Assembly (NCBI GenBank): GCA_020697375.1
Contig: JAJFBJ010000099.1
Location: forward strand, 1 to 11,804
DNA: 11,804 nucleotides
Source of the DNA: Nitrospira sp.
GTDB taxonomy: Bacteria; Nitrospirota; Nitrospiria; Nitrospirales; Nitrospiraceae
Direction: 5' to 3'
Positions within the stretch are counted from its first letter, which is position 1. Every line of letters begins with the position of its first letter. This document shows, piece by piece, positions 1,522 through 11,097 of this stretch. A program made the translations under genes and the position numbers. Under the pieces are notes generated by a model, which saw only the letters and a program-made list of their open reading frames with translations, did not search any database and was not told the origin of the DNA.

Positions 1522-3030
1522 TTAGCTCGGGTTGTGTTTCGGTCGTTTTTCAATGTCCGGATTGTGATAGCCACCGCCCAATGATTCGATCAGATCGACT
1601 GCCGCCACCAGTTGGTCGCTCTCCAACGCCCTCAGCGCATATTCCTGCTCCAGGACCGGATAGCGATGCCTGAGCACCTCTCGATCATCATCCAGACCAT
1701 TGACGAGACGCACTTTCGCCAAGCGCCAATCATCACCCAGGGAGGCCACTAACCGTTTATGCGAGGCCATGATCTCATTGGTGGTGTGCCAGGCACTCAA
1801 ACTGTCGGCCACTTCCCGCATGGCATCCAGCAAGGTGTCGTTATACAGTTCCACCGCGGCATCATATTCCGCGCGTTGCGCCCCCAATTCGCCGCGCAGC
1901 CGGCCGCCTTCGAACCAGGGCATGCGCAAACCGGGCGCCAGTCCATAGGAAAAGCTTTGGCCGCTGAAGAGAAAATTGGCCAGCTTGTCGGTGCCCTTCG
2001 CCAACGTCAGCGCATTGAATCCCACGAACCCCGTCAGATCGATGGTGGGATAAAATTGCGTGGTCGCCACCCGGACCAATCGCGATGCGGCGTGCGCTCG
2101 ATAGAGGGCTGAGGCCAAGTCGGGCCGATGGACGAGTAATCCCATGGACAGATGGTCGGGCGCCGCAATCTGACTGGGAACAATCACTTTCGGTTTGGCA
2201 AACAGATGGGCCGCCTCGTCGGGGCCCTTGCCGGCCAACCGCGCCAGCAAATGGCGCTGCACGTCCAGCTGATCGCGAATCGCGGCTTGGCGCTTGAACG
2301 CCGCTTCATAGTCGGCCACCGCCATTTTGACCGGCTGGTCATTATCAAGCCCAAGGCGGAATCGAGTCTCCGCAAGCGTCTTGAGATCGCGGCGGATGCC
2401 GACGATGGTTTTGACAATAGTGAGTTGCTGCTGGAGAGCCTGTCCACGGAAGTAGGCGCGGGCAATACCGGTGGTCAATCGCAGGCGCACCTCGGCCGTT
2501 TCCGCCTCTTCGGCCGCCGCATGCCCCAAGGAGGCTTCCAGCATAGCCCGGTTCTTTCCCCAAAAATCGAATTCATATCGGAAGCTCAACGGGTTGATGA
2601 TCCCGTACATGATTCTGATGCCCGCCACTTCCGGGTTCAGGGCTGCAAACACACCATGTTGGGAAATACGCTCATAAGTCAGCGAGGCATCGGCTTCAAG
2701 AAACGGCAGCAGCCGCGCGCCTTCCACCTTCACGAGCGAGGTGGCCTGCCGCAGCCGGGCGGACGCATGTTTCAATCCGGGGTTATCCTTGAGCGCCTGC
2801 TCGATCAAGCCATTCAGTTCGGGATTGCCGAATTGTTCCCACCAGTGATCCTCCGGCCACTTCTGCAGACGGCTCGTGACTTCGGACAGCGTCTCCGTCA
2901 TTTCCGGCGGCTCGAGATATTGCGCCGGCGGATCCCCCTTCGGGACCCAGGCACAGCTGCTGAAGAGCAGTACGCAGCCGATCCCGAGACCGATCGGCAA
3001 TCGCCGGCTCGTCGATGAACGCGATCTCAT
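1522..3030 (-). CDS. Outer-membrane efflux factor lipoprotein (NodT/OprM-like, TolC superfamily)
   Basis: This 502-residue protein is the outer-membrane exit duct of the tripartite pump. The N-terminus is a lipoprotein signal: basic start (MRSRSSTSRR), hydrophobic core, then FSSC with the lipidation cysteine at residue 26. The mature part carries NodT-family features: a WWEQFGNPELNGLIEQAL stretch after about residue 60, heptad-rich helical segments, and two repeated outer-membrane efflux protein halves (about 60-260 and 270-480). In the second half, LLVHRPDLASAL and FYPTIDLTGFVGF are characteristic. The start overlaps the facilitator stop as ATGA and has a textbook AGGAGG ribosome site 4 bases upstream, which fixes the start. 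It ends 5 bases before the adaptor start. The length is normal for the family. Confidence 0.94.
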   Translation of the reverse strand: MRSRSSTSRRLPIGLGIGCVLLFSSCAWVPKGDPPAQYLEPPEMTETLSEVTSRLQKWPEDHWWEQFGNPELNGLIEQALKDNPGLKHASARLRQATSLVKVEGARLLPFLEADASLTYERISQHGVFAALNPEVAGIRIMYGIINPLSFRYEFDFWGKNRAMLEASLGHAAAEEAETAEVRLRLTTGIARAYFRGQALQQQLTIVKTIVGIRRDLKTLAETRFRLGLDNDQPVKMAVADYEAAFKRQAAIRDQLDVQRHLLARLAGKGPDEAAHLFAKPKVIVPSQIAAPDHLSMGLLVHRPDLASALYRAHAASRLVRVATTQFYPTIDLTGFVGFNALTLAKGTDKLANFLFSGQSFSYGLAPGLRMPWFEGGRLRGELGAQRAEYDAAVELYNDTLLDAMREVADSLSAWHTTNEIMASHKRLVASLGDDWRLAKVRLVNGLDDDREVLRHRYPVLEQEYALRALESDQLVAAVDLIESLGGGYHNPDIEKRPKHNPS

Positions 3031-4625
3031 GGCACCTCCTCCATCAATGCTTCAGCGCGCCGCTGCCGCAGGTCGTCGGCGGGAGTCGGCGTCAACGGCA
3101 AGTGCGTCGGATGGGCGAACCACACGAGAACGCCCAAGCCGACAAACATGAAACTCGCGACGAAAAAGGCGTCGTTGAGACCCAGGATCGCCGCTTCTTG
3201 TTTAATTAACAGTCCGAGCTTGGCCTGAATTTCAGGGGGCGACAATCCGGCCGCGCTCAATTTGGCCGTGAGCTGTCCCATCGGATCAAATGAGATTGAC
3301 TGGCGCCCTCCAAAGTGATCGGCCAAATGCAGTTGATGGAAATGGATGCGCCGGAACAGAACGATGCCTTGGAACGTAATCCCGAACGCTCCGGCAGCGA
3401 CACGCAACAGGTTCGCGACCTCGGCGGCGCGCATGACCAAGGGACCGGAGAGGCCATGGAGGGTCAGTACCGTGACCGGTGTAAAAAAGGATCCCAAGAA
3501 GATACCTTCCACGAGCATCGGCCAGAACAGTTCTTCGTAGGAATGGGGATGGTCATACAAACCCAGCCAGTAAAACGTCCAGGCAAACCCCAGGCTGTTC
3601 AGGCAGATCAGCCAACGGGCATCGATGTATTTGCAGAGCACGTGCATGACCGCGATGGCAGGCGCGCCCAGCAAGACCAGCGGCAGCAACGCCAACCCGG
3701 CGAGTTTGGACGAATATCCCAGGATAAGCTGAATTTGTACGATCAGAAGCGACAGGAGCCCTTGGATCGAGAAAAACCCGAGCATGAGGCTGATGAGGCC
3801 GATCACAAAATTGCGATGCATGAACAACCGAAGGTCGAGCGTCGGATGCCGTTCCCCCAATTCCCAAATGACGAAGCAAGGAAAGGCGATAAGCAGTACC
3901 ACGGCGATGGCCTGCAGGAACGGCGAATCCAGCCAGTCGAAATCGTTGCCCATGTTGAGCAAGGTCTGCAGTCCTAGGAGCAGCACGGCCAGCAACAGGA
4001 ATCCGACCAGGTCGAATCGCGCATACCGCCGGTGGAATCCGCGGCCGTACAACAAGGCGCCCAATGTGCCGACGATCACCAGTGTCAGCACGAAGTCCAA
4101 ATAAAATAAGAACCGCCACCCGAGCATATAGGCGATGTAGCCCCCCACCGGCATGCCGATCGTGAAGGGCGTAATGCTGAAGAGCCCCCAGACGGTCAAG
4201 GCGACTGCCTTTAATCGTTTGGGATATTCGTTGAGCAGCATGGATTGAGCAATCGGCAAGGTGATCCCGCCGGCAATGCCTTGCACGATGCGTGCGGGGA
4301 CGAATTGCGCAAGCGTTTGGCTGTCGCCGCACAGATAGGACGCGACGCTGTACACCAGGAAGGCCCCGATCAGCAGGCGGTAGTCGCCGATCCGCCCGGA
4401 CAGGTATCGCGCGAGGGGAAATCCCAACGCCAATCCGACCATGAAGTCGGTTTGGGCCCAGGTGAGAAAACTCGGCAGCACCCCGCCCAGATCCCCCGAG
4501 ACGTGCGGCAACAAGGCGATGTACGAACCGGCGTTGAACAGCACGACGATGTGCGACAAGCCGAGCACGGCATTGAAGAGCACGAATCGCCATCCATGCA
4601 ACCGCCTGAGATACACAGTCGCCAT
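3027..4625 (-). CDS. DHA2-type major facilitator drug/solute exporter (EmrB-like, 14 helices)
   Basis: This 532-residue proton-driven inner-membrane transporter has about 14 hydrophobic segments, as in DHA2 (EmrB) members. Family signatures are visible. A motif-A-like loop LARYLSGRIGD lies after helix 2 (about 71-81). Motif B with its key arginine is in ARIVQGIAGG (R112). A motif-C-like antiporter segment IGMPVGGYIAYMLGWRFLFYLD is at about 157-177, with M-P where G-P is usual. After the last core loop comes a segment of about 70 residues before a final helix, and the tail is short, hydrophilic and charged. The ATG at 4625 has GGAG 7 bases upstream and lies 16 bases after the channel stop. Its stop overlaps the porin start. 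With the adjacent porin and adaptor it completes a Gram-negative tripartite system. Whether it exports drugs, an organic acid or a metabolite is not shown. Confidence 0.93.
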   Translation of the reverse strand: MATVYLRRLHGWRFVLFNAVLGLSHIVVLFNAGSYIALLPHVSGDLGGVLPSFLTWAQTDFMVGLALGFPLARYLSGRIGDYRLLIGAFLVYSVASYLCGDSQTLAQFVPARIVQGIAGGITLPIAQSMLLNEYPKRLKAVALTVWGLFSITPFTIGMPVGGYIAYMLGWRFLFYLDFVLTLVIVGTLGALLYGRGFHRRYARFDLVGFLLLAVLLLGLQTLLNMGNDFDWLDSPFLQAIAVVLLIAFPCFVIWELGERHPTLDLRLFMHRNFVIGLISLMLGFFSIQGLLSLLIVQIQLILGYSSKLAGLALLPLVLLGAPAIAVMHVLCKYIDARWLICLNSLGFAWTFYWLGLYDHPHSYEELFWPMLVEGIFLGSFFTPVTVLTLHGLSGPLVMRAAEVANLLRVAAGAFGITFQGIVLFRRIHFHQLHLADHFGGRQSISFDPMGQLTAKLSAAGLSPPEIQAKLGLLIKQEAAILGLNDAFFVASFMFVGLGVLVWFAHPTHLPLTPTPADDLRQRRAEALMEEVP

Positions 4626-4641
4626 CGCCGATCTCCATCAC

Positions 4642-5523
4642 TCAATACGAAGGCGAATAACCGGGTTGATCGGATCGGGGATTCCCCGGTTGAGTCGCCG
4701 CCGCAACGGGCACCGATTGCGCCGAGGCAGGCGCTGCGCCACGATGCGCCGCATAAATCGCCAACCCCGTAAACAGCATGCCCCCGACCAAATTTCCCAA
4801 CGTCACCGGAATTTGATTCCAGAGCCACCAGGTCGAGAGGCTCACATTCGCGCCCAAGATCATGCCGACGGGAATCAGGAACATGTTGACCACCGCATGT
4901 TCGAAGCCTTGAGAAAAGAACAGCAAGGTAGGGCCCCAGATCGCGAGGATTTTCCCGGAAAACGATGTCGACATGAAAGCGGCGACGACCGCCAGACTGA
5001 CCATCCAGTTACAGAGCATCCCTTTCGTGAAGACCGCGAGGAGGCCGGCTGGGCCATGCGACGCATAGTAGTTGGTTTTCGCCTCGGCGATCGCAATCAG
5101 CTTGGTGCCCACTGCATTGATCTGGGCATCTCCGGAGGTCGTCAAGGCGATCGCGAACAATCCCGCATAGAGCGTGCTGCCCAGCAGATTGCCCAGGAAT
5201 ACCCATCCCCAGTTCGCGAAAACCCGGCGCAGGCCGGCGTTTTTCTGACCTGCGACCGCTGCGCAGGGCAGTAGGGCGAAACTGCCGGTGATGATCTCCG
5301 CCCCAAGCAGAATGGCCAGAGCCAATCCGAATGGAAAAAGAAGACTGCCGATGATCCAATAACCCGTTTCTACAGCGACCGTGACCGCCATACTGGTTCC
5401 TATTCCCAGGTAAGCGCCGGCCAGCATGCCCCGAAGTACGAGCTGATGTGGCGGCAAGCTCAGCTTCACTGCCCCGCCGGCCAACATGCTATCCACTACG
5501 CCGTATGGCTTCACATAGTCCAT
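4642..5523 (-). CDS. Formate/nitrite transporter (FNT) family channel
   Basis: The 293-residue inner-membrane protein belongs to the FNT family (FocA, NirC, HSC), pentameric channels that pass small monovalent anions such as nitrite, formate or hydrosulfide. Signature regions: KLSLPPHQLVLRGMLAGAYLG (20-40), the omega-loop motif GAEIITG (74-80), GMLCNWMVSLAV (168-179), and FSGKILAIWG followed by GFEHAVVNMFLIP (188-218). The last contains the central pore histidine, H209, which aligns with the catalytically important His of FocA/NirC. Six helices are followed by a low-complexity Ala/Pro/Ser tail after about residue 260. I chose ATG 5523 because AAGGAGG lies 5 bases upstream; the frame extends upstream to 5586 but that start has no ribosome site. 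It is the first gene after the sigma-54 promoter. Nitrite is the most likely substrate in a nitrite oxidiser, but formate cannot be excluded. Confidence 0.93.
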   Translation of the reverse strand: MDYVKPYGVVDSMLAGGAVKLSLPPHQLVLRGMLAGAYLGIGTSMAVTVAVETGYWIIGSLLFPFGLALAILLGAEIITGSFALLPCAAVAGQKNAGLRRVFANWGWVFLGNLLGSTLYAGLFAIALTTSGDAQINAVGTKLIAIAEAKTNYYASHGPAGLLAVFTKGMLCNWMVSLAVVAAFMSTSFSGKILAIWGPTLLFFSQGFEHAVVNMFLIPVGMILGANVSLSTWWLWNQIPVTLGNLVGGMLFTGLAIYAAHRGAAPASAQSVPVAAATQPGNPRSDQPGYSPSY

Positions 5524-5594
5524 CGCATCCTCCTTGTGGTCCGTTCGAGGCACGCTTGGCGATCCACCGATTCCGCCGAATGACATTCAGCTAT
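5524..5594 (-). promoter_or_regulatory. Predicted 71-nt leader of the FNT operon with strong ribosome site
   Basis: Counting 12 bases from the -12 GC of the sigma-54 promoter puts transcription start near 5594, giving a leader of about 71 nt. It ends in AAGGAGG at about 5529-5535, an ideal ribosome site for ATG 5523. A small GAATG-T-CATTC hairpin lies inside it. The start site is predicted from spacing, not measured. Confidence 0.5.
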
Positions 5595-5604
5595 TCCCAC
5601 TGTG

Positions 5605-5619
5605 AGCAAACCACGTGCC
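5605..5619 (-). promoter_or_regulatory. Sigma-54 (-24/-12) promoter for the FNT/efflux operon
   Basis: Read on the minus strand the sequence is GGCACGTGGTTTGCT. This matches the sigma-54 consensus TGGCACG-N4-TTGCW at every core position except the first T, which is A here. The -24 GG (5618-5619) and -12 GC (5606-5607) are separated by exactly 10 bases, the spacing sigma-54 requires. It lies 82 bases upstream of the channel start, points into it, and the divergent gene pair encodes a sigma-54-dependent activator. Confidence 0.75.
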
Positions 5620-5627
5620 TCACAGCC

Positions 5628-5642
5628 GGCAACAGATTTGCT
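5628..5642 (+). promoter_or_regulatory. Second, divergent sigma-54-like promoter towards the kinase/activator operon
   Basis: On the plus strand GGCAACAGATTTGCT again gives GG-N10-GC with a perfect TTGCT -12 box. The -24 box, GGCAAC, is one base off GGCACG in its C and another in its G. Predicted transcription start is near 5653, leaving a leader of about 270 nt before the kinase GTG at 5923. Its -24 box is only 8 bases from that of the minus-strand promoter, so the two polymerases could compete. It is weaker and less certain than its partner. Confidence 0.45.
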
Positions 5643-5653
5643 CACCCAAAACG

Positions 5654-5688
5654 GGAGGGAAGACCTCCATCGCTTCCCCTGTGGGAAG
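5654..5688. promoter_or_regulatory. Cluster of dyads; candidate activator site or structured leader
   Basis: CTTCCC (5673-5678) and GGGAAG (5683-5688) form a dyad with a 4-base spacer, centred about 86 bases upstream of the predicted FNT transcription start, a usual place for a sigma-54 enhancer site. A second GGGAAG at 5657-5662 can also pair with the same CTTCCC, and GGAGG/CCTCC (5654-5658, 5664-5668) forms a third small stem. In RNA from the plus-strand promoter these would be mutually exclusive hairpins at the very 5-prime end. Which reading is right cannot be told from sequence. Confidence 0.35.
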
Positions 5689-5696
5689 TTGCGCCT

Positions 5697-5725
5697 TTCA
5701 AGAGCCTCCATCCGATCAGTAAAAT
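5697..5725 (+). promoter_or_regulatory. Weak sigma-70-like promoter candidate for the kinase
   Basis: TAAAAT at 5720-5725 is one base from TATAAT. A poor -35 match, TTCAAG at 5697-5702, lies 17 bases upstream. It would give the kinase operon a constitutive basal promoter just before the 5736-5756 dyad. The evidence is thin. Confidence 0.2.
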
Positions 5726-5735
5726 TGGCGCGCTA

Positions 5736-5756
5736 TCGCACAAGCGCACAGTGCGA
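5736..5756. promoter_or_regulatory. Nested dyad TCGCAC-N9-GTGCGA with inner CGCAC-A-GTGCG; candidate enhancer
   Basis: TCGCAC (5736-5741) and GTGCGA (5751-5756) are inverted copies. Inside, CGCAC (5745-5749) and GTGCG (5751-5755) form a tighter palindrome around one A. The centre is about 150 bases upstream of the predicted FNT start. Closely spaced half-sites of this kind are typical of NtrC-family enhancer sites, but there is no direct evidence of binding. Confidence 0.35.
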
Positions 5757-5922
5757 AAACGCTCAAGCTGAAAAGTTACGTGCGTCAAACCGATACCGGC
5801 GAGCTCGTCCTGCCGGAGGGCCCACCCCGGAGGGTGCACGCCTCTGTCACGTCCAACGGGAGACGAAGTTGCACATGGACGGCGGTCAAGACTACGATGT
5901 CCCCGGAGATTGAAAAGCCCTC

Positions 5923-7878
5923 GTGAATGACCTGTTGAGCAACCTGCCGATCGCCCGCAAGCTCTTTCTTGCGTCGGTTATTCCTGCGCTGACGGTCCTG
6001 ATCCTCAGCGTTTTGACCTACCGCAGCGTCGAGACCTTCTCCGACGATGAAGGCCAGCTGAACGACATCTACTATTCCCAACGGCTGGCTTCGGAATATC
6101 TCCGACTGATCGTCGACCTTGAAACCGGATTCCGAGGCTTTGTCTTGACCAGCCAAGAACACTATTTGTTTCCCTATCGAACCGCTCAAGACCACGTACT
6201 GAACCTGGGCCGCACGCTGGAAGCCAAGGTCTCTCAGTATGAAGACCAACAGGCGCTCATCGCTTCCATTCAACAGTTGGTCAGACAATTCATCGAAGAA
6301 AAGGAGCTCTTGATCGAGGCGGTGAAGGCCGAACATACAAACGATGCGCGACTGTATATCGAGGAGGGCAAGGGCCGGACGCTCATGCTGAAAATCCGGC
6401 AAGAGATGGGCCAATTCGAGCACCTCGCGCAGACGGCACTGAATAGCCGTCTGGCGAAACTCGCGCAGGATCGTGACACCATGTTGATGACTATTCTGGG
6501 AGGCGGCCTCTTTGCGTTGATCTGCATGGTGGGGGTGTTGCACCTCATCGCGCATTCCATCACGGCGCCCCTCGAGCAGCTGGCCAAGGCCGTCGTCGCC
6601 TCCGACAACGATCCCGTCCCCCAGGTTCCCATCTTGTCCGGCACAGACGAAATTGGAAATCTATCCCGTGTCATGCATGCCATGAGTTCCGCCATCCATT
6701 CCCATATCGCCGCGGTGGAACAATCGGAGGCGAATCTGCGGCAACTCAATCAAGACTTGGCGGGATCGGAAGCGAAATATCGAAGTATCGTCGACCATGC
6801 TCCCTTCGGCATCTTCACCACCCGCGGCATGACCCTCGTCTTCAGCAATCGTTACAACAGAGTTCTCGCAGGACTCGATCCCAGTGAAGAGAAGGATCCG
6901 GACGCCGTCCGGCGCGCCATTCACCCGGAAGACCGGGAACGGGTCGTCACTGAATTTTCAGAAGCCGTGGCGGAGGGGCGCGCCTATGAAACAGTGTTCC
7001 GGTTTCTCCATGGCGACGGGACCGTGCGGAGGGTCCTGAGCCGCCGTATTCCCATCAGCGACCATTCCGGCCGGGTGCTGATGTATCAAGGTTTCAACGT
7101 GGACATCACGGCGCTCGATTTGATGCAGACCCGTCTCCGCCGGGCTGAACGGCTCGCCACGCTCGGCCAGGTCGCCGCGGGCATCGCGCATGAAATCAGA
7201 AATCCGCTGGTCGGAATCGGCTCCACCACGTCTCTCTTGCTCGACGATATCGACCCGGACGACGGGCGACGCCGCGACCTTGAAGTAATCTTGCAGGAGA
7301 CCAAACGTCTCGACCGGATCGTGAATCAGATCATTGACTATGCCCGCCCTCGCGAGATCGTGGCGCTCCCGTTCGATATGGTACAACTCGTGCAGGAAGT
7401 CACCAAGGTGTTGGATGAACCCCTCACACACAAACAGTCGGCCATACGTCTTCTGGCGCCGGCGGCGCCTTACACCATCCAAGCTGATCGGGATCAATTC
7501 AAACAGGTGTTACTCAATGTGATGCAGAATGCGATCGAAGCGACTTCTCCGGGCAGTCCCATCATCGTCTCCCTGGCACAACTCGCCCACGGTGTCGAAC
7601 CGGGGCTGGAGATTGCGGTGACGGACCAGGGCAGCGGCATCAGTCCTGCCCACCTGGCGCACGTATTCGAACCGTTCTTCACCAGCGGCAAACCCCGCGG
7701 CACCGGGTTGGGGCTGGCCATTTGCCGGAACATTCTCGATGCGCACGGCGGGGACCTGACACTCGAAAGCGAAGTCGGCAACGGTACGACCGTTCGGGTC
7801 TGGTGCCCCCTGCGACAACAACCGCTACGGATCCAGGAAGAGGAGCAGCATGCGGGCCACGATCTACGTCACCGATGA
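5923..7878 (+). CDS. Membrane sensor histidine kinase, CHASE3-HAMP-PAS-HisKA-HATPase
   Basis: The 651-residue kinase is the likely partner of the overlapping NtrC-type regulator. Order: TM1 (about 13-33), an extracytoplasmic CHASE3-like helical sensor (about 38-180) with the typical DLETGFRGFVLTSQEHYLFPY stretch (65-85), TM2 (about 187-210), a HAMP-like linker (210-265), PAS (about 283-400) with a PAC-like end, and HisKA with H-box AAGIAHEIRNPL, phospho-acceptor H423. The ATPase domain carries the N-box LLNVMQNAIEA (530-540), G1 DQGSGI (568-573), F-box FEPFF (582-586) and G2 GTGLGL (593-598). All catalytic boxes are intact. The GTG start at 5923 is the first start after an in-frame stop at 5911; the ATG at 5927 is out of frame and stops after three codons. 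The ribosome site is weak. The gene overlaps its regulator by 29 bases. CHASE3 ligands are generally unknown. Confidence 0.93.
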   Translation: MNDLLSNLPIARKLFLASVIPALTVLILSVLTYRSVETFSDDEGQLNDIYYSQRLASEYLRLIVDLETGFRGFVLTSQEHYLFPYRTAQDHVLNLGRTLEAKVSQYEDQQALIASIQQLVRQFIEEKELLIEAVKAEHTNDARLYIEEGKGRTLMLKIRQEMGQFEHLAQTALNSRLAKLAQDRDTMLMTILGGGLFALICMVGVLHLIAHSITAPLEQLAKAVVASDNDPVPQVPILSGTDEIGNLSRVMHAMSSAIHSHIAAVEQSEANLRQLNQDLAGSEAKYRSIVDHAPFGIFTTRGMTLVFSNRYNRVLAGLDPSEEKDPDAVRRAIHPEDRERVVTEFSEAVAEGRAYETVFRFLHGDGTVRRVLSRRIPISDHSGRVLMYQGFNVDITALDLMQTRLRRAERLATLGQVAAGIAHEIRNPLVGIGSTTSLLLDDIDPDDGRRRDLEVILQETKRLDRIVNQIIDYARPREIVALPFDMVQLVQEVTKVLDEPLTHKQSAIRLLAPAAPYTIQADRDQFKQVLLNVMQNAIEATSPGSPIIVSLAQLAHGVEPGLEIAVTDQGSGISPAHLAHVFEPFFTSGKPRGTGLGLAICRNILDAHGGDLTLESEVGNGTTVRVWCPLRQQPLRIQEEEQHAGHDLRHR

Positions 7879-9241
7879 CGAACCAGCCATTCGCACCGCC
7901 ATTCTCAAACGCCTCTCACGGCGACAACATGCCGTCACGGGGTTCGAGTCGGGAGAGGATTTAGTCAGGGCCGTTACGCAGCTCGTCCCGGATCTGATTC
8001 TGCTGGATCTCAAGATGCCGGGGATGGGAGGGCTGGAGGCGCTGCGGCAGATTCGTCCGATCGCCCCCCAGACGCTGGTGATCATGTTGACCGCCTACGG
8101 CACGGTGGAAGACGCCGTAGAAGCCATGCGGCTGGGGGCCTATGATTTCTTGATTAAATCCGTGGACCTGTCCGGCGTCGATCCCGTGGTCGATCGCGTG
8201 CTGGAATTTCTCGCGCTTCGCCAACGGCTCGAATTTTCGCTCGAAGACCAGAACAGCCCCTATGCCCTCTCGAATATCAACGCGCGCAGTCCGGCGATGC
8301 AACTGTTGTTGGGGCAGGTTCGCGACGTGGCCCAGAACGCCAAATCAACGGTCTTGCTTCAAGGTGAAACCGGCACCGGCAAAGAATTTCTCGCGCGAGT
8401 CATCCATTGCAACAGCCCGCGCGCCACGGGCCCGTTTGTCGCCGTCAATTGCACCGCCATACCGAAGGAACTCTTCGAGAGCGAGCTGTTCGGATTCGAG
8501 CGCGGCGCGTTCACGGGGGCGCACCAGCGCAAACGGGGGCTGCTGGAAAAGGCCGAAGGCGGCACCTTGTTTCTGGATGAAATCGGCGATCTGGACCCGG
8601 CGATGCAGGCCAAACTACTCAGAGTTTTGCAGGAACGCACGTTTCGCCGCCTGGGCGGCATGGAAGACCTCTCCGTCGATTTCCGCTTGATGACCGCGAC
8701 CAATCGCGACCTCAAGAAGGACACGGCGCGCGGCACGTTTCGGGAGGATCTCTATTTCCGCTTGAACGTGGTGACGTTCGAACTCCCGCCGCTCCGCGTG
8801 CGCACCGAGGACATACTGCCGCTCTGCATGCAAGCCATGCTCCGATTCGGCAAAGAATTTGGAAAAGACGTCGTGGATATCGATCCCGAGGCGCAGGAGC
8901 TGCTTCAACGGTACAGCTATCCGGGCAACATTCGCGAGCTTCAGAACATCATCGAGCGCGCAATGATCCTCTGTCACGACAAGACCCTCACCGCCGGCTG
9001 CCTGCCGCGGGAGCTTCGCGACCAGGCCCCGCATATCGCGGTTGCCACGGCCCAGGGCGCCCACCCGTCGCTTCGCATCGAGATGGTGCTGGGCCAACAG
9101 ACCTTGGCGGATGTCGAGACCGCCTTGATCGAAGAGGTGGTACGACTCTCCGATCACAATAAGACGCTGGCAGCCAAACATCTTGGTTTGACGCGATTCG
9201 CCCTGGATCGCCGCCTCAAGAAACAAATGGAGCAGGAGTGA
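7850..9241 (+). CDS. NtrC-family sigma-54-dependent response regulator (REC-AAA+-Fis)
   Basis: This 463-residue transcription activator would be phosphorylated by the preceding kinase. It would then hydrolyse ATP to open sigma-54 RNA polymerase complexes. The receiver domain (1-120) has acidic residues D9/D10, phospho-acceptor D53 and T81. The conserved lysine K103 is followed by S instead of the usual P. The AAA+ domain (about 145-380) has Walker A GETGTGKE (172-179), the sigma-54-contacting loop GAFTGA (219-224) and Walker B LFLDE with D243/E244. The C-terminal Fis-type helix-turn-helix is at about 425-460 (NKTLAAKHLGLTRFALDRRL). The ATG at 7850 has an AGGAGC-like ribosome site 3 bases upstream and lies inside the kinase 3-prime end, so translation is coupled. 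Its most obvious targets are the divergent sigma-54 promoters upstream of the kinase; that link is inference. Confidence 0.95.
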   Translation: MRATIYVTDDEPAIRTAILKRLSRRQHAVTGFESGEDLVRAVTQLVPDLILLDLKMPGMGGLEALRQIRPIAPQTLVIMLTAYGTVEDAVEAMRLGAYDFLIKSVDLSGVDPVVDRVLEFLALRQRLEFSLEDQNSPYALSNINARSPAMQLLLGQVRDVAQNAKSTVLLQGETGTGKEFLARVIHCNSPRATGPFVAVNCTAIPKELFESELFGFERGAFTGAHQRKRGLLEKAEGGTLFLDEIGDLDPAMQAKLLRVLQERTFRRLGGMEDLSVDFRLMTATNRDLKKDTARGTFREDLYFRLNVVTFELPPLRVRTEDILPLCMQAMLRFGKEFGKDVVDIDPEAQELLQRYSYPGNIRELQNIIERAMILCHDKTLTAGCLPRELRDQAPHIAVATAQGAHPSLRIEMVLGQQTLADVETALIEEVVRLSDHNKTLAAKHLGLTRFALDRRLKKQMEQE

Positions 9242-9301: not shown

Positions 9302-10459
9302 ATGGCTCGGATTCCGATGTCTGATCATCACACCCGATGGGTTCTCCCGGTCGTCGCCGGACTGAGCGGGGGACTCCTTGCGCTGGATCTGTTCATGCCG
9401 CTCGGAGTGGCCATCGGCGTGCTCTATGCCGGGATCGTCCTGGTGGCTTCGTCGTCGTCCAATCCTCGGCTTCCGCTACTCACCGCCGGCTGCGCCAGTG
9501 GACTGCTCATTGTGGGAGCGGCGTGGGGTCCTCGTCTGAGCAGCATTCCTCTGTGGGTCGGCCTCACAAATTGCGCGCTCGGTTTGGTCATCGTCTGGAT
9601 TTCCGCCATACTATTGCGCCAGCGACACCAGGCGGAGATCCACCTTCGCCAGACCAAGGACGAATTGGAAGACCGAGTCGCCGTCCGCACGAAAGAACTC
9701 GCGAACGTGAATCAATCGCTGTTGAATGAAATTTCGGAACATGTGGAGACGGAACAATCACTCCGCATGAGCGAGCAGGCGCTCGCGAACAGCCGCCAGG
9801 AGCTGCAGGATTTGGCAGCCCGTCTCCTCACGGCGCAGGAAGAAGAGCGGCGCCGTATTTCCCGAGACCTTCATGATGACATCAACCAGCGACTGGCCAT
9901 GCTGGTGGTGCAGGTAGAGTCCTTGGACAGCAACCTCCCACCTTCGACGAACACCTGCAGCAAGGAATTGCGCTCCATCCAGGACCGCCTGACCGAGTTG
10001 TCCGATGATGTTCGGCATTTGGCCTACCAATTCCATCCGTCGATTCTCGATGACCTGGGGCTCACAGTCGCCCTGCAACGCCTGGTCGATGATTGTACCG
10101 CCCGTTCGAACCTGAGGGGCACGTTCGATGCCTCCCACCCTCCCGAACAGCTTCCGCAGAACGTCTCCACCTGTCTCTATCGGATCGCACAGGAATGCCT
10201 CGCCAATGTCGTGAAGCATGCGCGCGCCACCAGCGTGCGGGTGTCTCTCTCGTCGACTGCCGAGACCGTCACACTTCGGGTGGACGATGACGGAATCGGG
10301 TTCGATTCGCACAGCGTGATCGACGGCCATCGCGGTCTTGGATTGGTCAGCATGACGGAGCGCGTGCGTCTGGTCCAGGGGACGGTGGCCATCGAGTCAA
10401 TCCCGCAGCGAGGCACTTCGCTGTGCATTACCGTTCCCCATCGCGAGGCGCTCGTATGA
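9302..10459 (+). CDS. NarX/DegS-like membrane histidine kinase (HisKA_3)
   Basis: The 385-residue kinase belongs to the class that pairs with LuxR/NarL-type regulators. The N-terminus holds three or four hydrophobic helices (about 13-33, 36-52, 57-75, 84-105) with almost no periplasmic domain, suggesting membrane-embedded or cytoplasmic sensing. A coiled coil (about 108-175) leads to the HisKA_3 dimerisation box AQEEERRRISRDLHDD, with phospho-acceptor H191. The ATPase domain (about 285-380) has RIAQECLANVVKHA as N-box, DDDGIGF as G1 and GHRGLGLVSMTERV as G2. The start at 9302 has a GAGGCGG-like sequence 10 bases upstream, a loose spacing; ATG 9317 is an alternative. It begins 60 bases after the sigma-54 activator stop and overlaps its own regulator by ATGA. 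No sensor ligand can be inferred. Confidence 0.92.
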   Translation: MARIPMSDHHTRWVLPVVAGLSGGLLALDLFMPLGVAIGVLYAGIVLVASSSSNPRLPLLTAGCASGLLIVGAAWGPRLSSIPLWVGLTNCALGLVIVWISAILLRQRHQAEIHLRQTKDELEDRVAVRTKELANVNQSLLNEISEHVETEQSLRMSEQALANSRQELQDLAARLLTAQEEERRRISRDLHDDINQRLAMLVVQVESLDSNLPPSTNTCSKELRSIQDRLTELSDDVRHLAYQFHPSILDDLGLTVALQRLVDDCTARSNLRGTFDASHPPEQLPQNVSTCLYRIAQECLANVVKHARATSVRVSLSSTAETVTLRVDDDGIGFDSHSVIDGHRGLGLVSMTERVRLVQGTVAIESIPQRGTSLCITVPHREALV

Positions 10460-11097
10460 CGATGCCGCGAGTCTTATTGGCAGACGACCATACGTTGGTG
10501 CTGGAAGGGTTTCGGCGAATCGTCGAGCAACGCTGCGAGGTCGTGGGAGCGGTCGAAGACGGTCGAGCCTTGCTGGAAGCTGCGGCACGCCTGCGCCCGG
10601 ATTTGATCCTTTTGGATATCTCGATGCCGCTTCTGAACGGCATCGATGCGGCGCGTCAGCTAAAAAAAACGCACCCCCACGTCAAACTTGTTTTCGTCAC
10701 GATGCATGCCGATCCCGCCTATGTAAGCGAGGCATTCAAAGCGGGCGCGTCGGCCTATCTGCTCAAGCGGTCCGCCGCCCGAGAGTTGGATCAGGCCATT
10801 GAGTCCGTCCTGAAAGGACAATTTTTCGTCACGGCTTTGCTGACGAAGGAACTCGTCACCTCTCTATCCGAAGGGCACCATACTCCCTTCGTCACACGGC
10901 AAGATTTGACGCCGCGACAACGCGAAGTGCTGCAGCTCGTGGCGGAAGGACGCACCATTAAGGAAATCGCCGCGCTGCTCAATATCAGCCCCAAGACGGT
11001 GGAGTTTCACAAGGCGCAGATCATGTTCCATCTCGACCTCCACACGACGGCTGAGTTAACGAAATACGCCTTGGCACATGGCCTCACATCGGCCTGA
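10456..11097 (+). CDS. NarL/FixJ-family response regulator (REC-LuxR HTH)
   Basis: This 213-residue DNA-binding regulator is the partner of the overlapping HisKA_3 kinase. The receiver domain (about 5-120) has the acidic pair D10/D11, phospho-acceptor D54 (LILLDISMP), a T in VFVTMHA and the conserved K in YLLKRSAA, where R follows instead of P. The LuxR-type helix-turn-helix (about 150-208) reads LTPRQREVLQLVAEGRTIKEIA followed by NISPKTVEFHKAQI, a very typical form. I chose ATG 10456 because it overlaps the kinase stop as ATGA, has GAGG 7 bases upstream and gives a normal N-terminus. The longer frame from GTG 10423 only adds an unconserved tail. Its targets are unknown. It does not contact sigma-54 polymerase and so should act at different promoters from the upstream NtrC-type regulator. 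Confidence 0.94.
   Translation: MTMPRVLLADDHTLVLEGFRRIVEQRCEVVGAVEDGRALLEAAARLRPDLILLDISMPLLNGIDAARQLKKTHPHVKLVFVTMHADPAYVSEAFKAGASAYLLKRSAARELDQAIESVLKGQFFVTALLTKELVTSLSEGHHTPFVTRQDLTPRQREVLQLVAEGRTIKEIAALLNISPKTVEFHKAQIMFHLDLHTTAELTKYALAHGLTSA

Follow-up and report, generated by a model that had tools for sequence, protein, structure and literature searches.

How is a Nitrospira operon that encodes an FNT-family channel and a tripartite efflux pump controlled together with the histidine kinase and NtrC-type regulator genes that diverge from it? Nitrospira are major nitrite oxidizers and, to our knowledge, routine genetics is lacking in this genus; consequently, few regulatory sites have been defined in it. 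The question is raised by a contig of 11,804 nucleotides from Nitrospira sp. (JAJFBJ010000099.1, assembly GCA_020697375.1), analysed over its whole length and hereafter called the window. The original prediction placed two sigma-54 promoters back to back between these operons, with the two polymerases excluding each other and the cell possibly switching between making the transporters and making the sensor. Here, we compared this region with its counterparts in related genomes and weighed that switch against other arrangements.

Sequences and comparisons

Forty-seven FNT loci were collected, and the footprinting alignment was made with 23 of them (L001 to L023); those left out were a truncated Nitrospira locus (L039) and loci of other taxa without the kinase and the pump (the remainder of L024 to L047). 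The footprinting relatives are not independent, and two of them (L010 and L017) share an assembly. The FNT protein of the window was 84-91% identical to those of N. defluvii and related MAGs (L001 to L018, 18 of the 47 loci). When the intergenic DNA was used as a query, only short matches were obtained, in 14 of 175 genomes; by this DNA the closest relatives were L001 and L004. RpoN was present in all 15 relatives searched, the search covering 15 of 17 relatives. For promoter sites, P is the probability that the intergenic region (399 bp), once shuffled, contains at least one equally good match, as estimated from 2000 dinucleotide shuffles.

Gene content of the locus

The genes and sites of the window are listed in Table 1. 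The ATG at 5523, with AAGGAGGA before it, is probably the start of the FNT gene, rather than the beginning of the open reading frame at 5586, and the intergenic region is accordingly taken as 5524-5922; the same ATG and leader were seen in those relatives whose sequence extends to the FNT start. The channel scored below the equivalog cut-offs of FocA (TIGR04060, 109 of 290 bits) and NirC (70 of 293 bits); a FocA formate transporter in Nitrospira is mentioned in the part of PMC8407350 covered here. Likewise, the regulator stayed under the equivalog cut-offs of AtoC (429 of 714 bits), NtrC (395 of 559), and ZraR (338 of 760), and the GAFTGA motif that had been ascribed to it was present.

Table 1. 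Features of the window, with positions counted from its first nucleotide.
Feature	Position	Strand	Details
EmrA/HlyD-type periplasmic adaptor	395-1516	minus	PF13437; TIGR00998 276 bits, under the cut-off of 391
NodT-type outer-membrane efflux channel	1522-3030	minus	TIGR01845 305 bits, cut-off 210
DHA2/EmrB-type MFS efflux transporter	3027-4625	minus	TIGR00711 232.8 bits, cut-off 230.2
FNT-family channel	4642-5523	minus	Pfam PF01226 (longer ORF); NCBIfam fnt 143 bits, under the cut-off of 232
Inverted repeat	5602-5619 / 5628-5645		18-nt arms, 78%; includes both -12 boxes
FNT-side sigma-54 promoter (predicted), AGGCACGTGGTTTGCT	5620-5605	minus	-24 GG 5619-5618, -12 GC 5607-5606, predicted start 5594
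Plus-strand GG-N10-GC, CGGCAACAGATTTGCT	5627-5642	plus	GG 5628-5629, GC 5640-5641, predicted start 5653
Dyad TCGCAC-N9-GTGCGA	5736-5756		inner CGCAC-N-GTGCG; flanking CGCTC 5760-5764; nearly midway between the promoters
Kinase-side sigma-54 site (predicted)	5858-5873	plus	degenerate -24 GGAGAC, -12 GC 5871-5872, predicted start 5884
CHASE3-HAMP-PAS histidine kinase	5923-7878	plus	
NtrC-type response regulator	7850-9241	plus	receiver, sigma-54 activator domain with GAFTGA, Fis-type HTH
Second histidine kinase (HisKA_3)	9302-10459	plus	
Second response regulator (LuxR/GerE type)	10423-11097	plus	

A conserved, predicted sigma-54 promoter before the FNT gene

Both GG-N10-GC signatures were found where they had been predicted, with exact spacing and with the 8-base gap between their GG pairs. 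The minus-strand site (5605-5620) agrees with the consensus at 11 of 12 positions (P 0.004 per intergenic region), and its GG, TTGC and spacing, in the form GG-N8-TTGCT, are kept in all 23 relatives as well as in the window, in an alignment where much of the neighbouring sequence is not conserved. These data support the predicted sigma-54 control of the FNT-efflux operon. The plus-strand site (5627-5642), on the other hand, agrees with nine of 12 positions (P 0.18), and no counterpart was found in any of the 23 relatives aligned, L001 and L004 included. Nearby plus-strand GG-N10-GC strings in L008, L010, L013, and L022 are weaker (7-8 of 12), stand at other offsets and are without TTGC. The original prediction held that two such signatures are unlikely to be chance and proposed following them through the intergenic regions of relatives; on both counts the minus-strand signature stood and the plus-strand one did not, the latter being probably a chance match or specific to this lineage. 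The two TTTGCTCAC boxes, being arms of one inverted repeat (Table 1), are not independent events.

Two further candidates in this region were rejected. The inverted repeat at 5602-5645 was considered as an operator, and its right arm was only partly kept in L001, L004, L007, and L009. A scan for sigma-70 promoters gave three sites in the window against 3.6 expected, none of them within 5524-5922.

The putative kinase-side promoter and the dyad between

Upstream of the kinase, the string GG-N8-TTGCAC stands approximately 50 bp before the start codon in 17 of the 20 relatives with a divergent kinase, and it is also present in the window, at 5858-5873. This site sits about 230 bp beyond 5627-5642, so that the divergent sigma-54 control proposed for the kinase-regulator operon is supported by another site than the one first named. 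Taken alone, the copy in the window matches seven of 12 positions and is not significant (shuffles equal it with probability 0.86). Its -24 box (5859-5864) is GGAGAC in the window against GGC in the relatives, which is either a true weakening or a sequencing error.

If the two conserved promoters, about 290 bp apart from start to start, share one enhancer, co-activation is predicted, not mutual exclusion. We regard it as highly improbable that overlapping promoters within 5605-5642, with polymerases that exclude each other, act as a transporter-versus-sensor switch, which lacks support from the comparison. That switch is favored by two real signatures of exact spacing, and a lineage-specific replacement promoter is conceivable, given the degenerate copy of the conserved kinase-side site in the window; against it stand the absence of the plus-strand site from every relative, even the closest ones, its expected frequency by chance, the conservation of a kinase-side site elsewhere, and the leader of approximately 270 nt that it implies, with the enhancer downstream of the start.

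The dyad at 5736-5756 is likely a shared enhancer (upstream activating sequence, UAS) of the NtrC-type regulator. It is kept in 20 of the 23 relatives (a single mismatch in one of these); beside FNT in L014, L021, and L022 no dyad was found, though the FNT sigma-54 site is kept there. Measured from the center of the dyad to the -12 C of each site, the distances in the window are 140.5 bp on the FNT side and 125.5 bp on the kinase side; in 17 relatives they span 134.5-147.5 bp and 117.5-149.5 bp, respectively. In L019, L020, and L023, whose kinase is only 57% identical, the dyad (95 bp from the FNT site) and the FNT site are kept and the kinase-side site is absent.

These three loci bear on another reading, in which the FNT promoter and the dyad are real and the kinase operon of the window is not driven by sigma-54, so that control in two directions would not exist here. 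The missing site in L019, L020, and L023 and the degenerate -24 box of the window speak for it. We consider it unlikely, as GG-N8-TTGCAC recurs in most relatives with a divergent kinase and in the window itself, the intergenic region offers no sigma-70-like site, and a two-sided pattern was met in 21 of 175 genomes, with no hits in the control.

Recurrence of the dyad and the sigma-54 site

The exact dyad occurred in 42 copies in 17 genomes (0-5 per genome), 14 of which were at FNT loci. Half of the 28 non-FNT copies were inspected, picked partly for a motif-like core or nearness to an FNT locus; in nine of these 14, a near-perfect sigma-54 site stood at a distance of 75-88 bp, and in five none did. 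L070:304, L072:387, L067:7603, and L073:8419 are exact dyads for which no near-perfect site was seen at the usual spacing.

Across the 175 genomes of the family, the dyad followed after 50-80 bp by GGCAY-N5-TTGC was found in 37 genomes, and with the longer spacing (96-126 bp, then GGC-N7-TTGC) in 34, whereas the reversed-pattern controls gave 0 hits in both cases. Among those 34, the 21 genomes mentioned above carry a sigma-54 site on each side of one dyad. The remaining 13 are one-sided, and six of them (G062, G071, G072, G079, G113, and G132) share one near-identical sequence that resembles conserved coding DNA, meaning that the looser pattern yields false positives. By eye, the outer half-sites are separated by N9 in two-sided dyads and by N10 in one-sided dyads of short spacing, a difference that may reflect function or common descent.

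Targets were assigned for 32 of the 41 short-spacing hits, namely those within 30 fetched loci. Thirteen hits precede a gene for a 33-aa protein, six an FNT gene, five a gene for a CBS-domain protein, and two a CHASE3 kinase; one precedes a kinase 32% identical to the second kinase of the window, and five were left unassigned. A counterpart of the window's own CHASE3 kinase (59-62% identical) lies behind the dyad and sigma-54 site in G031 and G032. Read toward the promoter, the array at these other targets is roughly TCGCAC-A-GTGCG-N4-GTGCGA-ATTCGCTC (32 instances).

The 33-aa protein, MVRMIKKVGDRELAWVMLAIAAVALWSTWGLAS (L064:4560-4658, minus strand), has one membrane span by eye and gave no Pfam or NCBIfam matches. 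It was first met through the motif and afterwards collected by protein similarity, which makes its loci a partly independent test. The similarity search found it in 36 of the 175 genomes, from which 30 loci were taken and 29 parsed (L180 was not). Upstream of the gene, all 29 parsed loci have both a dyad and a sigma-54 site of at least 10 of 12 positions each, and 16 of these loci were absent from the short-spacing hits; mononucleotide shuffles reach 10 of 12 in 2% of cases for the dyad and 1.3% for the sigma-54 site. Counted from the dyad start, the site lies 81 bp away in 26 loci, 80 bp in two and 90 bp in one, the dyad chosen in L183 being 9 bp off the common spacing.

Neighborhood of nitrite oxidoreductase

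A gene for a GAF-type activator and then nxrA come after the pump operon in L063 (N. defluvii), L064, and L066, while in L065 no nxrA was found there; this flank was seen in relatives and lies outside the window. Nitrite oxidoreductase chains of PDB 7b04 gave matches for the L063 alpha subunit (E 0) and the L064 beta subunit (E 3e-176). The dyad was considered as an nxr promoter element and rejected, none being found within 450 bp upstream of nxrA in these three genomes. About 250 bp upstream of nxrA, TGGCATGTGAGGTGCA forms a sigma-54-like site, identical in L063, L064, and L066 and with no dyad nearby, which is possibly an nxr promoter used by the GAF-type activator. A free-standing CHASE3-domain protein is encoded after nxrAB in L064 (4890-5549, minus strand); its alignment with the sensor domain of the CHASE3 kinase in the window shows 32% identity across 106 residues.

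Which activator may bind the dyad

The neighboring NtrC-type protein had been named as the likely activator, and its GAFTGA motif, its domain make-up, and its co-occurrence with the motif support this assignment. At E 1e-150, the regulator gene was found in 34 of 37 motif-positive genomes and in 55 of 138 others (Fisher 4e-9, a value that overstates independence because the genomes are related). These 55 genomes have the regulator and lack the short-spacing motif. Three motif-positive genomes gave no match at this threshold; in G001, the regulator gene is cut by a contig end (L001), leaving G038 and G111 as exceptions.

Another sigma-54 activator, for instance the GAF/NifA-like one encoded next to nxrA, might instead bind the dyad, which we think quite improbable. 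Its gene lies after that of HlyD in L002 and before nxrA in L063, L064, and L066; it too is enriched, being present in 23 of 37 motif-positive genomes and in 37 of 138 others (Fisher 9e-5). This association is weaker than that of the NtrC-type regulator: at E 1e-150 the GAF-type gene is missing from 14 of the 37 motif-positive genomes, against three of 37. Furthermore, upstream of nxrA the dyad was not found despite the sigma-54-like site there, and the motif precedes the CHASE3 kinase counterpart in G031 and G032, which also argues against the GAF-type activator.

Regulatory model

Taken together, the two conserved promoter sites, the dyad, their spacing, their recurrence, and the co-occurrence with the regulator gene, all read from sequence, make it probable, in our judgment, that the transporter and kinase-regulator operons form an autoregulated sigma-54 regulon, with a two-way control region in which one dyad would serve both sides. 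Binding, phosphorylation, looping, co-activation, and the signal are what we infer in the following scheme. A signal would activate the CHASE3 kinase, which would phosphorylate the NtrC-type regulator; the phosphorylated protein would bind the array at 5736-5756 and loop to the sigma-54 polymerase at 5605-5620, turning on the FNT and EmrAB/NodT-type efflux operon. From the same array it would also reach 5858-5873, its own kinase-regulator operon, in a positive autoregulation by which transporters and sensor would rise together. Other array-bearing promoters, notably those of the 33-aa membrane protein and the CBS-domain protein, may be driven by the same regulator. That nitrite or its by-products are linked to this signal is no more than a guess made from the gene neighborhood.

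A broader proposal is tentative, and we hold it to be improbable as it stands: a Nitrospira sigma-54 regulon for envelope or anion stress tied to nitrite oxidation, in which the CHASE3 kinase and its NtrC-type partner would induce FNT, the EmrAB/NodT-type pump, and the 33-aa protein, and in which the latter, or the CHASE3 protein adjacent to nxrAB, would feed back on the kinase, somewhat like ZraP, which reportedly represses ZraSR.

Relation to known systems and significance

The literature was covered in part (portions of PMC12342949, PMC5767232, PMC7522533, PMC8407350, PMC4987338, PMC6606698, PMC3897727, and PMC4641369), and in what was searched we met no description of the enhancer, the regulon, the FNT promoter, or the 33-aa protein, which leaves their absence from the literature unproven. 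One close parallel is zraP/zraSR of Salmonella and E. coli, where the two-component NtrC-type ZraR controls divergent sigma-54 promoters (PMC4987338). As in that system, one promoter belongs to the kinase-regulator operon itself and the other to an envelope-related target (PMC4987338); unlike it, the target here is a channel and efflux operon instead of a periplasmic chaperone, and the sensor domain and the dyad differ. In Desulfovibrio vulgaris, the divergent sigma-54 operons orp1 and orp2 are co-activated by their cognate regulator DVU2106 at palindromic sites (PMC3897727), and our locus resembles them, by sequence, in its divergent sigma-54 operons and in a dyad at enhancer distance between them. 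The gene of DVU2106 is sigma-70-driven and negatively autoregulated (PMC3897727), whereas the regulator operon of the window has a conserved sigma-54 site.

Within Nitrospira, sigma-54 or NifA-like regulators of nxr paralogues encoded next to nxrAB have already been published (PMC6606698, PMC7522533). They share the genus and, in some relatives, the neighborhood with our locus, and, as described in the portions covered, differ from its two-component system, enhancer, FNT promoter, and 33-aa protein (PMC6606698, PMC7522533). The pump itself is of the EmrAB tripartite type, with an EmrB-type MFS transporter, an EmrA-type adaptor, and a NodT-type channel in common, the difference being that an FNT channel leads the operon.

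In brief, the comparison replaces the switch with a co-activation model, brings to light a conserved 33-aa protein that matches neither Pfam nor NCBIfam, and supplies a concrete enhancer sequence, its spacing, and a list of targets on which the purified regulator of Nitrospira could be tested.
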